Source: Halalkalibacter suaedae (GTDB taxonomy: Bacteria; Bacillota; Bacilli; Bacillales; Bacillaceae_D). Taken from it: DNA of 64,000 nt. The notes under the pieces are model-generated. The model searched no databases. It was not told the DNA's origin and saw nothing but the letters and a program-made list of their open reading frames with translations. Positions 1 to 21,030 of this stretch are shown here, piece by piece (positions within the stretch are counted from its first letter, which is position 1; each line of letters opens with the position of its first letter). Position numbers and translations under genes: made by a program. Location: contig NZ_JAGKSQ010000006.1 in NCBI RefSeq assembly GCF_017939705.1, forward strand, positions 1-64,000, given 5' to 3'.

Positions 1-84
1 CAAGCTCCCATTAGTCCGCTCGACTTGCATGTATTAGGCACGCCGCCAGCGTTCGTCCTGAGCCAGGATCAAACTCTCCATAAA
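1..84 (-). rRNA. 16S rRNA, 5' end only (partial)
   Basis: Read on the minus strand, the segment holds the canonical 16S 5' region, with the 27F primer site (AGAGTTTGATCCTGGCTCAG) followed by the universal GACGAACGCTGGCGGCG block. The mature 5' end is placed near position 84 by analogy with B. subtilis, whose 16S begins with UUUAU. The gene runs off the left edge. Upstream, the leader keeps the typical Bacillus TTGAAAACTGAAC string near 195-215. Confidence 0.97.
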
Positions 85-16335: not shown

Positions 16336-17241
16336 ATGAAAATTGCAATTGCTGGTGGTTCTGGTTTAATCGGAACGAAATTGACAAATTACTTTGTAAG
16401 CAAAGGTCACTCTGTCTTCATTTTAACAAGAGATGCCACAAACAAACCAGTTAAAGATCATGTTCATTATATCGAATGGTTAAAAGATGGGACAAAACCT
16501 GAATTAGATTTAGAAGGAATTGAGGCATTTATTAATTTAGCAGGGGAATCAATTGGTGATGGACGTTGGACAAAGAAGCGTAAAGAAGCTATCTTAAATA
16601 GCCGCATCACGTCAACAAGAACAGTCATTGACTTACTTTCAAAGCTTAAATCAAAACCTGAGGTTCTCGTTAATGCATCAGCCATAGGGTATTACGGAAA
16701 TTCGTTAACTGAAACATTTACTGAATCTTCACAGCCTATTGAAACGAACTTCCTATCAACTGTCGTTCAACACTGGGAAAAAGAAGCTGAGAAAGCATCA
16801 AATCTCGGAGTACGTGTTGTGTATTGTCGCTTAGGAATTGTTCTAGATGCGTCTGAGGGTGCCCTTCCGCAAATCGTCTTACCATATCGCTTATATGTTG
16901 GTGGACCTCTTGGCAAAGGATCACAATGGGTCAGTTGGGTCCATATTGATGACGTTGTTGGAATGTTTGACTTAGCGATTGAACAAACAGAAATTATCGG
17001 ACCACTGAATGTTACAAATCCAGTTCCTATACAAATGAATGATTTTGGAAAAACGGTTGCGACAATTTTAAACAAACCGCATTGGATTCCTGTACCTGCA
17101 TTCGCTCTCAAATTACTGCTTGGAGAGATGAGTACACTTGTCCTCGATGGAAATAAAGTGCTGCCAGAAAAGGCGAAAAAATATGAATATTCTTATCGTT
17201 TCGAGTCACTTTCTGTCGCTCTTAATCATATTTTAAAGTAG
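16336..17241 (+). CDS. yfhF: TIGR01777-type NAD(P)-dependent epimerase (YfhF)
   Basis: A 301-residue extended-SDR protein. Rossmann motif GGSGLIG (residues 7-13), NLAGESIGDGRW and the YG..LTE segment mark the TIGR01777 (SulA/YfcH) subfamily, with a C-terminal DUF1731 domain (about residues 245-301). The substrate is unknown. AAAGGAGG lies 7 nt before the ATG. Divergent from recX, same as B. subtilis yfhF-yfhG. Confidence 0.92.
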   Translation: MKIAIAGGSGLIGTKLTNYFVSKGHSVFILTRDATNKPVKDHVHYIEWLKDGTKPELDLEGIEAFINLAGESIGDGRWTKKRKEAILNSRITSTRTVIDLLSKLKSKPEVLVNASAIGYYGNSLTETFTESSQPIETNFLSTVVQHWEKEAEKASNLGVRVVYCRLGIVLDASEGALPQIVLPYRLYVGGPLGKGSQWVSWVHIDDVVGMFDLAIEQTEIIGPLNVTNPVPIQMNDFGKTVATILNKPHWIPVPAFALKLLLGEMSTLVLDGNKVLPEKAKKYEYSYRFESLSVALNHILK

Positions 17242-17353
17242 ATAATTTTTTCTTAATAATTGGTAGACTTTTTCACATAAAATTTATAAAAAAGAGGTAT
17301 CTTTTTTGTAAAAAAACATTTAATATAAGAAAGGATTCAAGAGCAAATAAGCG

Positions 17354-17359
17354 TATAAT
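17354..17359 (+). promoter_or_regulatory. Putative -10 box for the GNAT leader transcript
   Basis: A consensus TATAAT lies about 220 bp upstream of the GNAT start. No good -35 box is seen (AGGATT at 17332-17337, 16-bp spacer, is the nearest), so it may need an activator. Transcription would start near 17,366, just before the structured leader. Confidence 0.45.
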
Positions 17360-17365
17360 ATATAA

Positions 17366-17581
17366 AACAAGAACTAATATTAAGGTGAAGACGTTACAAG
17401 ACCCTAGAATCCACTATATCGCTAAATAGCCAATTTTATAAGCATTGGGAAGGCAATTGGTGCGCCATCAGCAAAGCTGGTTCTAGTGGGTTCGATTCCC
17501 ACCCCGAATTTGATACGTTTTTACATTAAATTCGAGGGTGGATCTATTTATCTGCCCTCATTATGACAAGGAGGGTTTTTT
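17366..17581 (+). promoter_or_regulatory. Candidate riboswitch or attenuator leader of the GNAT gene
   Basis: A leader of about 215 nt holds five pairings in which each excludes the next. They are P1 17407-17416/17484-17493 (10 bp, one GU); a tRNA T-arm-like hairpin GTGGG-TTCGATT-CCCAC 17486-17502; P4 17499-17511/17528-17541 (13 bp, one bulge); an antiterminator-like hairpin 17534-17543/17550-17559 (10 bp); and a terminator CCCTC/GAGGG 17555-17575 followed by T6. The last stem contains the SD (AAGGAGGG) of the GTG start at 17582, so it could act on both transcription and translation. Additional small hairpins sit inside P1 (17430-17435/17455-17460; 17467-17481). I do not recognise a known riboswitch class. 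Structure is hand-derived. Confidence 0.6.
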
Positions 17582-18136
17582 GTGATTTTAAAGAAACGAG
17601 ACGTTGCAGATTGTCATGCTCTTTATGAATTATTAGTTGATCCGGCTGTGTTCCCTTTTGTACGTCAAAAAGCATATTCGTATGATGAGTTTGTATTCAT
17701 GACGAAGCAGACAATTGAAGCTGAAGAGCGCGGCGAGCTCATTTCACGTACGATTGTTGATGAGTGGGGATCACCAATTGGGACTATCAATTTATTTGAT
17801 ATTTCAGAGCGAAGTGGTTTTTTAGGAACTTGGATTGGCAAGCCTTATTTTGGTAAAGGCTATAATAAGCTTGCAAAAGACGCCTTTTTTGAAGAACTAT
17901 TTTTTTCATGTGACATCCAAACAGTTTTTATGCGTATACGTAAGGAAAATATACGTTCATATATGGCAGCTGCAAAATTAGAGTATTGTACGTTAGCGAA
18001 TGAGATTCGCCGTGATGTGTATGAGCAACTCAATCAGCAAGCCGATGTGTATAATCTATTTCAAATTGAAAAAGACCAATACCACCTGCACTTAATGAGA
18101 ACGGTTCATGAAGATCTAGAAATAAAAGAAGCTTAG
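17582..18136 (+). CDS. GNAT family N-acetyltransferase behind a structured leader
   Basis: A 184-residue acetyltransferase of the RimJ/RimL-like GNAT type. Strands carrying GTINLFDIS, then GTWIGKPYFGKGYNKLAKDAF, correspond to motif A (the acetyl-CoA pyrophosphate loop, G-K-G-Y-N/G). VFMRIRKENIRSYMAAAKL corresponds to motif B, with the N-x-x-S-x-x-x-x-x-K pattern. The substrate is unknown. The start is GTG 17582, with AAGGAGGG 6 nt upstream inside the leader's last hairpin, so expression is probably conditional. It lies between yfhF and yfhE, which are adjacent in B. subtilis, so it is an insertion in a conserved block. Confidence 0.85.
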   Translation: MILKKRDVADCHALYELLVDPAVFPFVRQKAYSYDEFVFMTKQTIEAEERGELISRTIVDEWGSPIGTINLFDISERSGFLGTWIGKPYFGKGYNKLAKDAFFEELFFSCDIQTVFMRIRKENIRSYMAAAKLEYCTLANEIRRDVYEQLNQQADVYNLFQIEKDQYHLHLMRTVHEDLEIKEA

Positions 18137-18657: not shown

Positions 18658-18696
18658 AATTAAGTGATTAAAACAAGACGTAAGGGGGACACCGAC

Positions 18697-19215
18697 ATTA
18701 AAAGTCAAACGGCTCCTGCTGCTGTTAAGTCAAAGTCAGTTGTTTTTAGTAAACCGACCGTTGAAGATGGTGCAGGAATGTGGGAATTAGTAAATGAATC
18801 AACACTCGATCAGAATTCTGCTTACAAGTACATTATGATGTGTGAGTTTTTCGCAGAAACGTGTGTTGTCGCAAAAGAAGACGACAAGATTGTTGGCTTC
18901 GTCACAGCTTTCATTCCTCCAGAGCGACAAGATGTTGTATTTGTATGGCAAATTGGAGTCCATTCAACGCAGCGAGGTAAAGGTCTAGCATCTAAGTTAT
19001 TAAAAGAGCTTGTCAGCCGACCTGGTTGTAAGAATGTAGAATTCGTCGAGGCGACGATCACTCCATCCAATGAAGCATCTCAAGCCTTGTTCCGTCGATT
19101 AGCTAAGTCTTATGATACTAAATGCGAAGTAAAAGAATGTTTCTCTGAGGATCTATTTCCAGAAGAAGGACATGAGGAAGAACTCACATTCAGAGTCGGT
19201 CCTATTAAACATTAA
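18697..19215 (+). CDS. ectA: L-2,4-diaminobutyrate N-acetyltransferase EctA, probable AUU start
   Basis: A GNAT enzyme acetylating diaminobutyrate with acetyl-CoA, the second step of ectoine synthesis. FSKPTVEDGAGMWELV, SAYKYIMMCEFFAETCVVA and the acetyl-CoA loop HSTQRGKGLASKLL are EctA hallmarks. The start is unusual. The only well-spaced SD is AAGGGGG at 18682-18688, and the codon 8 nt behind it, in frame, is ATT at 18697 (172 residues). The GTG at 18664 has no SD and coincides with the predicted transcription start; the next ATG lies deep in the conserved domain. The choice of ATT is an inference. First gene of ectABC. Confidence 0.85.
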   Translation: MKSQTAPAAVKSKSVVFSKPTVEDGAGMWELVNESTLDQNSAYKYIMMCEFFAETCVVAKEDDKIVGFVTAFIPPERQDVVFVWQIGVHSTQRGKGLASKLLKELVSRPGCKNVEFVEATITPSNEASQALFRRLAKSYDTKCEVKECFSEDLFPEEGHEEELTFRVGPIKH

Positions 19216-19295
19216 GCATTATGAATATGACATCATTATCAGGAACGCCAAAACAATATTACCTATAGATTAGGTAACAGGAGGAGAATGAGAAG

Positions 19296-20579
19296 ATGAG
19301 TCAAACAGATATGAGTATTTTTGAAAAGCTAGAGTCAGAGGTTCGTAGTTATGTACGTAGTTTTCCAACCGTTTTTACTAAAGCAAAGAATTATAAAATG
19401 TGGGATGAGCAGGGTAAGGAGTATATAGACTTTTTCTCTGGTGCTGGTGCATTAAATTATGGCCATAATGATCCTCATATGAAATCGAAATTAGTTGATT
19501 ATATTTTAAGTGATGGAATTACTCATTCACTTGATATGGCAACAACTGCAAAAGCAGAATTTTTAACTACATTTAACGATGTAATTCTAAAACCAAGAAA
19601 TTTAGACTATAAGGTGATGTTTCCTGGACCAACTGGAACAAACACTGTTGAAAGTGCATTAAAGCTTGCACGTAAAGTAACAGGTCGTACAGAAGTTATT
19701 AGTTTTACAAACGGGTTCCACGGTATGACAATTGGTGCATTATCAGTAACTGGTAACGCCTTTAAGCGTAAAGGTGCAGGTGTTCCATTACAAAACGTAA
19801 TAACGATGCCATATGATAGCTTTGTCAATGACAACCTCGACACTCTGGAGTATCTCGAGCGTTTCCTAACGGATGGAGGTAGTGGGGTAGAAATTCCTGC
19901 TGCGATGATCCTCGAGACAGTCCAAGGTGAAGGCGGTATTAATGCTGCAAGATTCGAGTGGCTACAACGTGTAGAAGATATTTGTAAGCGTTGGGGTATC
20001 CTATTAATTATAGATGATGTTCAAGCAGGTGTTGGTCGTACTGGAACATTCTTCAGCTTTGAAAAGGCTGGAATTAAGCCAGACATCGTTTGTATGTCTA
20101 AGTCAATTGGTGGTATGGGGCTTCCACTTGCCATTACATTGATTCGTCCAGATCTTGATATTTTCGCACCTGGTGAACACAATGGTACATTCCGTGGAAA
20201 TAACCATGCATTTGTTACAGCAACAGCTGCACTTTCTTACTGGGAAGACCCTAATTTCGAAAAAGGAATTGAGACTCGTTCAAAACGCATGTTTGCTTTC
20301 CTAGAGCGTTTAGTTGCTGATTACCCTGAATTAAAGGGTGAAGCTAAAGGGCGTGGCTATATGGTAGGTATTTCTTCAGAAGTAGACGGCTTATCTCCAA
20401 AGATTGCTGCAGAAGCGTTCAAACGCGGTTTAATCATGGAGACATCTGGTCCAAAGGATGAAGTATTCAAATTATTCCCGCCACTAACAATTGATGATGA
20501 AGGTCTAGAAAAAGGCTTTGCAATTATTGAAGATAGTATTAAAGCAGTTCTTGGTGCAAAAGAACTTGTAACATCTTAA
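19296..20579 (+). CDS. ectB: Diaminobutyrate-2-oxoglutarate transaminase EctB
   Basis: A class III PLP aminotransferase making L-2,4-diaminobutyrate from aspartate semialdehyde and glutamate, the first step of ectoine synthesis. Of its 427 residues, the PLP lysine is K269 in [34 protein letters not shown] and [13 protein letters not shown] are the substrate and cofactor segments characteristic of EctB. GGAGG lies 11 nt before the ATG at 19296. There are 80 bp between ectA and ectB with no terminator, consistent with one operon. Confidence 0.97.
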
Positions 20580-20643
20580 TCTAAGGGGAGACCGACTCCC
20601 CTACATATTGTAAAAAATTTCTTAACATACGGAGGTAATATCG

Positions 20644-21030
20644 ATGAAAGTTGTTAAATTACAAGATGTCCTAGGTACAGAGCAAGAAGTAGATGGTGGA
20701 AATTGGATTAGCCGACGTCTAGTCCTAAAGAAAGATGGCATGGGCTACTCTGTACACGATACAATCATTAAAGCAGGTACAGAAACTCATATCTGGTACC
20801 AAAATCACTTAGAGTCTGTTTATTGTATTGAAGGCGAAGGTGAAGTTGAAACAATTGCAGATGGAAAAGTATGGCCAATTAAAAAAGACGAAATCTATGT
20901 ACTAGATAAAAACGATGAGCATCTTCTACGTGCAACAACTGACATGCGCATGGTTTGTGTATTCAACCCACCAATCACAGGTAGAGAAGTACATGATGAG
21001 AACGGTGTTTATCCGGTAGATGAAGACTAA
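20644..21030 (+). CDS. ectC: L-ectoine synthase EctC
   Basis: A cupin-fold cyclase converting N-gamma-acetyl-diaminobutyrate to ectoine, 128 residues as usual. [23 protein letters not shown] carries the presumed iron-binding and substrate residues, and [13 protein letters not shown] completes the second cupin motif. CGGAGG is 8 nt upstream. No ectD hydroxylase follows, so only ectoine, not hydroxyectoine, is predicted from this locus. The operon ends at the hairpins directly after it. Confidence 0.97.

Follow-up and report, generated by a model that had tools for sequence, protein, structure and literature searches.

Comparison of homologues indicates that the DNA in front of a GNAT N-acetyltransferase gene of Halalkalibacter suaedae encodes a real, widespread and strongly conserved leader RNA, which stands outside the families of Rfam 15. 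In the window (the whole stretch of 64,000 nucleotides that was analysed), the 5' part of this leader, 17447-17505, folds as a small tRNA-like cloverleaf supported by covariation. We consider it probable that the leader is a cis-acting switch RNA of a class absent from Rfam, in which the folding of the cloverleaf is coupled to a strand-exchange switch, whatever the effector may be. It has the attributes of a cis-regulatory leader or riboswitch candidate, namely a covarying structure, a fixed downstream gene and mutually exclusive helices that reach the Shine-Dalgarno sequence or a terminator, with some exceptions described below.

The region 17366-17581 (216 nt, forward strand) has a predicted folding energy of -57.7 kcal/mol, which is 2.75 standard deviations better than that of dinucleotide shuffles and was equalled by 2 of 200 of them. 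All helices named in the original prediction can form where they had been placed, both by reading of the sequence and by folding of the region. The presumed regulated gene follows on the same strand (17582-18136, GTG start, PF13302), and the ectoine genes ectA, ectB and ectC come directly after it (18664-21030); we take the names ectA and ectB from the family and the gene order. Consensus scans of the region gave no clear promoter or start site. The hexamer TATAAT (17354-17359, forward strand) may be a -10 element, with a poor -35 element and a putative start near 17366. An alternative -10-like hexamer, TAGAAT (17405-17410, forward strand), is present in the congeneric loci L002-L007, L010 and L011. 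Upstream of the leader, a block AGGATTCAAGAG...GCGNAT (17331-17359) is conserved in the window and in the congeners L002-L011, and resembles what we take to be the consensus of sigma-H-type promoters; a second conserved block includes TAGAAT. At 1-84 (reverse strand) the edge of the window truncates a 16S rRNA gene, of which the start remains.

The leader had originally been described as carrying a mimic of a tRNA T-arm. This arm is real (GTGGG-TTCGATT-CCCAC, 17486-17502), but the mimicry extends to a whole small cloverleaf that had been missed. All of its parts lie on the forward strand. An acceptor-like stem of three base pairs joins GGG (17447-17449) to CCC (17503-17505) and encloses the junction linker AA (17450-17451), a D-arm (17452-17466) with the stem GGC/GCC and a loop AATTGGTGC that has the tRNA-type GG, a hairpin in the position of the anticodon arm (ATCAGC-AAA-GCTGGT, 17467-17481), which lacks a 7-nt anticodon loop, the linker TCTA (17482-17485) and the T-arm with its UUCGAUU loop. 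The helix P4 (17506-17533, with 17506-17514 paired to 17525-17533) comes next and fits both states of the proposed switch. When the loci L001-L039 are compared, the aligned core reads GGGAAGGCAAWTGGTGMGCC, a variable hairpin, YCTA, GTGGGTTCGATTCCCAC and CCC, followed by P4. The arm in the anticodon position varies in length among homologues, and its loop differs in both length and sequence.

An alignment of 36 sequences (A3) has 98.1% of its cells paired in the cloverleaf and P4, with two-sided changes at 10 pairs vs 4.7 in shuffles, and 97.0% paired in an alternative with a longer P4 (P4-long, see below). This alignment and A2 comprise 36 of 38 core loci, leaving out L009, a near-copy of L008, and L036, which has a long insert in P4; L039 lacks the cloverleaf. 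The larger alignment A6, which was fitted to the structure of our covariance model R1 and whose counts lean towards that structure, contains 84 distinct homologues: 98.2% of the cells are paired in the cloverleaf and P4, two-sided changes occur at 14/26 pairs vs 6.1 in shuffles, and double-change cells number 155 vs 48.5, with six slid controls all lower on every measure. Its rows were drawn from 85 chosen loci found by BLAST and R1 searches, which would miss very divergent copies. They include L036 and omit L009, duplicates of included genomes and all loci from a pattern scan, the latter because the pattern demands the T-arm. It is mainly the evidence from these homologues, and less the fold of the single sequence, that places the leader above chance.

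Compensatory changes were seen in four helices. In the D-stem, 2 sequences have an AU pair in place of GC; in the T-stem, one GC pair has become AU in 4 sequences, giving GTAGG/CCTAC. The anticodon-like stem is affected as well, and P4 carries most of the covariation. The acceptor pairs show no compensatory change among the 84 homologues, so this stem is without covariation support; its first two G are present in 84/84. The unpaired bases AA, AA.TGGTG, TA (the end of the TCTA linker) and TTCGATT are identical in all 84 sequences, and the G-C pair closing the T-loop is invariant too. Since the elbow residues do not vary, their tertiary contacts are beyond the reach of covariation. For comparison with these invariant loops and linkers, the GNAT proteins of 36 relatives are 49-78% identical to that of the window. 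The covariance search that had been proposed, with a lack of homologues as its adverse outcome, thus found covarying homologues upstream of similar GNAT genes.

A BLASTN search with the 216 bases matched 39 of 60 genomes, that of H. suaedae included, and the part shared furthest (approximately 17447-17511) extends beyond the hairpin alone. At the level of the class, R1 (E 1e-3) matched 39 of 398 genomes; 34 of the matches were strong, at 75-114 bits, and 7 were weak, at 31-40 bits. The four weak matches examined all overlap tRNA genes (three tRNA-Gly and one tRNA-Glu). Among 199 genomes of the order, R1 matches were found in 160 (E 1e-3), the GNAT in 161 (E 1e-20) and both in 158. Three genomes have the GNAT and no leader match (G249, G484 and G547), and two have marginal leader matches and no GNAT (G502 and G528). 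Strong matches occur in 78 of the 97 sampled genera of the order (80 minus two with marginal matches only). Of the 299 genomes sampled across the phylum, 10 had an R1 match: 4 were strong, all within the order or the class, and 6 were marginal. The pattern scan of named genomes gave at least 120 stretches; Priestia, Neobacillus, Cytobacillus, Rossellomorea, Halobacillus, Virgibacillus, Oceanobacillus, Anoxybacillus, Parageobacillus, Kurthia and Jeotgalibacillus are among the matches listed.

The GNAT gene lies directly downstream of the leader in 38/38 loci of one set and 150/150 of another, a few genomes being common to both. The upstream neighbours vary across 120 loci (58 have what we take to be an amidohydrolase-like gene and 37 a presumably YfhF-like gene), which indicates that leader and GNAT form the unit. 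Because this clustering required open reading frames of at least 70 amino acids started by M, its GNAT cluster covers only 110 of the 120 loci; the separate search for the downstream gene found the GNAT in all. We also considered a mobile element and set it aside: the pattern was not matched in viral contigs, BLASTN gave no match in phages, and the single plasmid match, on a Cytobacillus replicon, is the leader-GNAT unit. The sole leader seen apart from the gene is a third copy (L199, genome G485, contig C23, reverse strand, 2146-2243) with no GNAT in the 5 kb examined; the gene after it is presumably UPF0316-like. Conversely, a second GNAT gene in G577 (L206) is not preceded by the leader.

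The sequence 3' of the cloverleaf offers, as originally proposed, the mutually exclusive pairings expected of a switch-like leader, and most homologues conserve them. The strand GAGGGTGG (17534-17541, forward strand), hereafter the invader, can pair with 17499-17505, which would displace the T-arm and the acceptor stem (OFF), or with 17552-17559 (ON). The former pairing gives P4-long, in which 17499-17505 is joined to 17534-17541 around the bulged A17535 and the helix extends as 17506-17514/17525-17533. Within it, GGGTGG (17536-17541) pairs with CCACCC (17499-17504), i.e. the 3' strand of the T-arm and part of the 3' strand of the acceptor. For the latter, the partner of GAGGGTGG is CTGCCCTC, the end of an anti-Shine-Dalgarno strand (17550-17559, forward strand) that forms either an antisequestor with 17534-17543 or a sequestor with 17570-17575. 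The Shine-Dalgarno sequence indeed lies inside the last stem, with GGAGGG (17570-17575) paired to GCCCTC (17554-17559), and is followed by six T (17576-17581). The element 17570-17581 (forward strand) may therefore include an intrinsic terminator in this genome; a terminator scan with a loop limit of 8 did not flag this stem.

These strands were studied in 164 usable leaders, after removal of 12 among 176 distinct elements for which automatic placement of the start codon or the Shine-Dalgarno sequence failed. Of the 164 leaders, 134 have GGGTGG, vs 0.86 expected from mononucleotide shuffling, and 30 lack it. Literal GAGGG or CCCTC is missing in 64/164. In all of the 100 leaders with both, antisequestor and sequestor form when the segments are folded separately; the antisequestor has more than 5 bp in 99, surpasses the sequestor in stability in 98 and has a mean z of -1.70 vs shuffled interiors. 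Among 134 homologues selected from 163 leaders for literal GGGTGG and CCACCC, accessibility of the Shine-Dalgarno sequence is higher with a forced T-arm than with a forced invader in 121. The effect is modest, with a mean unpaired value of 0.33 under the forced T-arm vs 0.19 under the forced invader and a difference above 0.2 in only 38/134. Of four example folds, only L001 fits the model; the distant L023, L028 and L031 retain the stem between CCCTC and the Shine-Dalgarno sequence even under a forced T-arm, so that in those predictions T-arm formation alone leaves this sequence captured, against the simplest model. We infer switching itself from mutually exclusive pairings kept in most, not all, homologues, and some of this evidence is weak in distant ones.

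The two states are close in predicted energy. For 17447-17581, the free minimum (-40.4 kcal/mol) corresponds to the cloverleaf, P4 and the antisequestor with the Shine-Dalgarno sequence unpaired (ON), and the OFF fold has -39.8 kcal/mol. The OFF fold wins when the transcript is taken from 17417 (-45.4 vs -42.8 kcal/mol) or from 17366 (-57.7 vs -53.6 kcal/mol, with P1 then part of the fold). Over the 134 homologues its mean advantage is 5.2 kcal/mol, which is what one would expect if the ON state needs to be stabilised. The suggested direction of control, ON when the T-arm forms, agrees with the pairing logic, and we adopt it on that ground.

Two other elements of the original prediction fared less well as general features. 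The helix P1 (5' strand 17407-17416, forward strand, overlapped by TAGAAT, paired to 17484-17493) had been taken as a part of the switch. It does exist in the window, but its 5' strand is not conserved across the family: the longest helix between the 80 nt upstream and the 5' region of the T-arm averages 7.13 bp in 164 homologues vs 7.46 bp in shuffles (the bins are rough, one row having used the upstream sequence of the whole locus), and close congeners reach 8 bp. As helix length in homologues is no better than in shuffles, we rejected P1 as a switch element of the family. The second concerns dual control of transcription and translation. The T run of the terminator (at least 5 after the Shine-Dalgarno sequence) is found in only 42/164 homologues, which suggests that control of translation by capture of the Shine-Dalgarno sequence is the more general mode and that termination is optional.

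Natural variants separate the components of the leader. Two congeneric loci, L039 (G007) and L210 (G011), lack the cloverleaf and keep P4 and the three switch strands, approximately 120 bases before the GNAT start. In both, GAGGG, CCCTC and GGAGGG have changed together, to G5, C5 and G5. In the family f36, the T-stem GTAGG/CCTAC replaces GTGGG/CCCAC in four of the seven aligned loci (L204, L205, L224 and L225). None of the seven has GGGTGG, their 3' strand retaining GG to GGGG, which implies that the long invader is not universal. The f36 loci may combine the tRNA-like domain with another expression platform.

From these data we propose the following mechanism. The segment 17447-17505 folds as the small tRNA-like cloverleaf, whose elbow would form, by analogy with tRNA, between the GG of the D-loop and the UUC of the T-loop. 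Once transcribed, GGGTGG would invade from a toehold in P4 and displace the acceptor and the T-arm, after which GCCCTC would capture the Shine-Dalgarno sequence, with a T-run terminator in a minority of cases (OFF). If the cloverleaf resists invasion, the invader would instead pair with the anti-Shine-Dalgarno strand and leave the Shine-Dalgarno sequence free (ON). An effector fitting the elbow or the four-way junction could then stabilise the cloverleaf and switch on the acetyltransferase; it would most likely be a small molecule, otherwise a protein that binds tRNA elbows. The acetyltransferase would deal with this effector or be needed together with it.

The view that no known class has this shape agrees with our searches, as no family of Rfam 15 matches the leader above its cut-off. 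When 501 bases (17200-17700) were scanned permissively, with E up to 10 and one match per clan, only tRNA-Sec came up (18.9 bits, cut-off 47), and ARAGORN found no tRNA in the window. No earlier description of such a leader was found in the accessible text of the open-licence literature, including PMC9788692 and PMC8632094. A tRNA gene was rejected on the two search results and on the 3-bp acceptor-like stem and variable arm. Among 42 distinct tRNAs of the same genome, the most similar to the leader is tRNA-Gly(UCC), whose score of 50.8 is just above the best among 200 shuffled leaders (48.1); between these tRNAs and tRNAs of other isotypes the scores are far higher (at least 63.2). In some genomes tRNA-Gly(UCC) has the T-arm GTGGGTTCGATTCCCA, AATGGT within the D-loop and CAGC or CAGCC/GCTG within the anticodon stem in common with the leader, but the tRNA-like element lacks a 7-bp acceptor, CCA and an anticodon loop and is embedded in an mRNA leader. 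In the own genome, tRNA-Gly differs in its T-stem and resembles the leader only weakly overall. Descent of the leader from a tRNA is possible on this evidence.

T-boxes are characterised by a GGGUGG strand at the base of the antiterminator, the involvement of tRNA and a terminator alternative. The leader shares with them (RF00230) a GGGUGG strand at the base of an antiterminator, an involvement of tRNA features and a terminator alternative. It differs in carrying the tRNA-like part in cis, in having UGG base-paired in the ON as well as the OFF fold modelled for the window and in preceding a GNAT; Stem I was judged by the lack of an Rfam match alone. We rejected membership since there is no covariance-model match to RF00230. 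A relic derived from a tRNA, or a degenerate T-box, with no part in regulation is another explanation, close to a caveat raised with the original prediction. It could account for the match to tRNA-Gly(UCC) and for AGGGTGG, which recalls the T-box core. Against it stand the much higher similarity of tRNAs to one another, the negative ARAGORN and T-box searches and the compensatory changes in homologues. Strong matches in so many genera, beside one gene in every examined locus but L199, are also unlike a relic, and we regard this explanation as extremely improbable. The guanidine-IV riboswitch and its Gd4v variant are leader RNAs that control a GNAT, but the accessible text of their description does not mention a tRNA-like fold (PMC9788692), and the present leader has no Rfam match.

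The closest known system is the yjdF riboswitch (RF01764), which is alike in layout and logic. According to the accessible parts of the sources, a tRNA-like fold with D-loop- and T-loop-like loops in a four-helix layout was proposed for it from SAXS and probing (PMC9142559), and a T-loop-like P2b, rather than an elbow, is described in a crystal structure (PMC10987639). Activating azaaromatics turn translation ON, and in the OFF state the T-loop arm is paired with the Shine-Dalgarno sequence (PMC9142559, PMC10987639); the riboswitch almost always precedes one gene of unknown role (PMC4793209). As far as these sources go, both systems are leader RNAs with four helices and D- and T-loop-like loops, turned ON by a stabilised fold and OFF by capture of the Shine-Dalgarno sequence. 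The present leader differs in having no match to the RF01764 covariance model at E up to 10 (17200-17700), a T-loop that is the canonical one of tRNAs, the additional extension helix P4 and, in place of yjdF, a GNAT gene downstream (188 loci). It also differs in the modelled capture of the Shine-Dalgarno sequence, which is assigned to a separate strand by three-strand exchange rather than to the T-loop arm: in the OFF fold of the model GGGTGG pairs with the 3' strand of the T-arm and CCCTC with the Shine-Dalgarno sequence. Four weak RF01764 matches (best E 0.476) are listed for the own genome, none of them on the contig of the leader, and a true yjdF leader in the relative G050 (L213) looks unrelated by eye. 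Membership was rejected on the missing match, the GNAT downstream in every locus of the two sets and the different modelled capture. A divergent yjdF (azaaromatic) riboswitch, with a common ancestor and the same type of ligand, would explain the shared layout, fold and ON logic, but is largely refuted by the covariance model and in our view very improbable.

Other explanations accept the cloverleaf and differ on what sets the switch. The canonical tRNA T-loop motif UUCGAUU with its closing G-C pair is what certain tRNA-binding proteins read, and both are invariant in the leader. A protein might thus take the place of the small molecule in the last step of our mechanism; RNase P, TruB or TrmFO (T-loop), the CCA enzyme or the GNAT itself, as an autoregulator, are candidates. 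In a profile search the GNAT is nearest to MccE (E 1.5e-7), which ranks ahead of a RimJ/RimL-type enzyme, a further GNAT and SpeG, and this provides a loose link to translation. The structure model of the GNAT is confident (mean pLDDT 93.5), but the fold search is generic, since SpeG, FdhC, RimJ and MccE all match and no substrate can be assigned. The leader also lacks an acceptor end and an anticodon loop, and binding of the elbow would give no obvious reason for the invariance of the linkers AA and TA and of the D-loop bases other than GG. We consider protein sensing unlikely, without dismissing it. A device without effector, in which the bistable leader alone sets the GNAT output as a sensor of folding rate, temperature or salt, would fit the nearly isoenergetic states of 17447-17581 and the osmolyte genes ectABC that adjoin the GNAT here. 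A thermosensor, however, needs no invariant bases in loops and linkers, yet these are kept across genera that include the thermophilic Anoxybacillus and Parageobacillus, and no ectoine gene was recognised in the 15 largest neighbour clusters of the 120 loci, judged by eye from the first residues of one member each. Such a device seems to us quite improbable.

According to the accessible text of PMC4964394, MccE is an acetylating enzyme of microcin C, in which a peptide is linked to a modified AMP and which blocks aspartyl-tRNA synthetase; MccE also acts on aminoacyl-sulfamoyl adenylates, and Salmonella RimL shares the microcin C-acetylating activity. The likeness to MccE and RimL makes a role of the GNAT near translation an attractive guess. 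A wider reading, which we hold only tentatively and think somewhat less probable than its negation, is that the leader is a true tRNA mimic in an mRNA, where tRNA-recognising machinery or a metabolite fitting the elbow or junction would be sensed in cis through the competition between T-arm and invader. It would then control a RimL/MccE-like acetyltransferase in translation or in detoxification of aminoacyl-nucleotides, and represent a second, independent and more faithful class of tRNA-like switch beside yjdF, widespread in Bacillales.

The leader may have been overlooked, we would guess, because its constancy makes covariation scarce and its core can resemble a stray tRNA. The near-equal energies of the two folds and the natural variants without the domain make the cloverleaf switch easily testable. 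If it is true, 158 of the 199 genomes sampled in the order, or about four in five, carry a regulatory RNA absent from Rfam 15, one that mimics the tRNA elbow almost without variation and would provide, beside yjdF, a second case of the tRNA-like fold itself as a gene switch. Its study may also reveal the role of an uncharacterised family of acetyltransferases.
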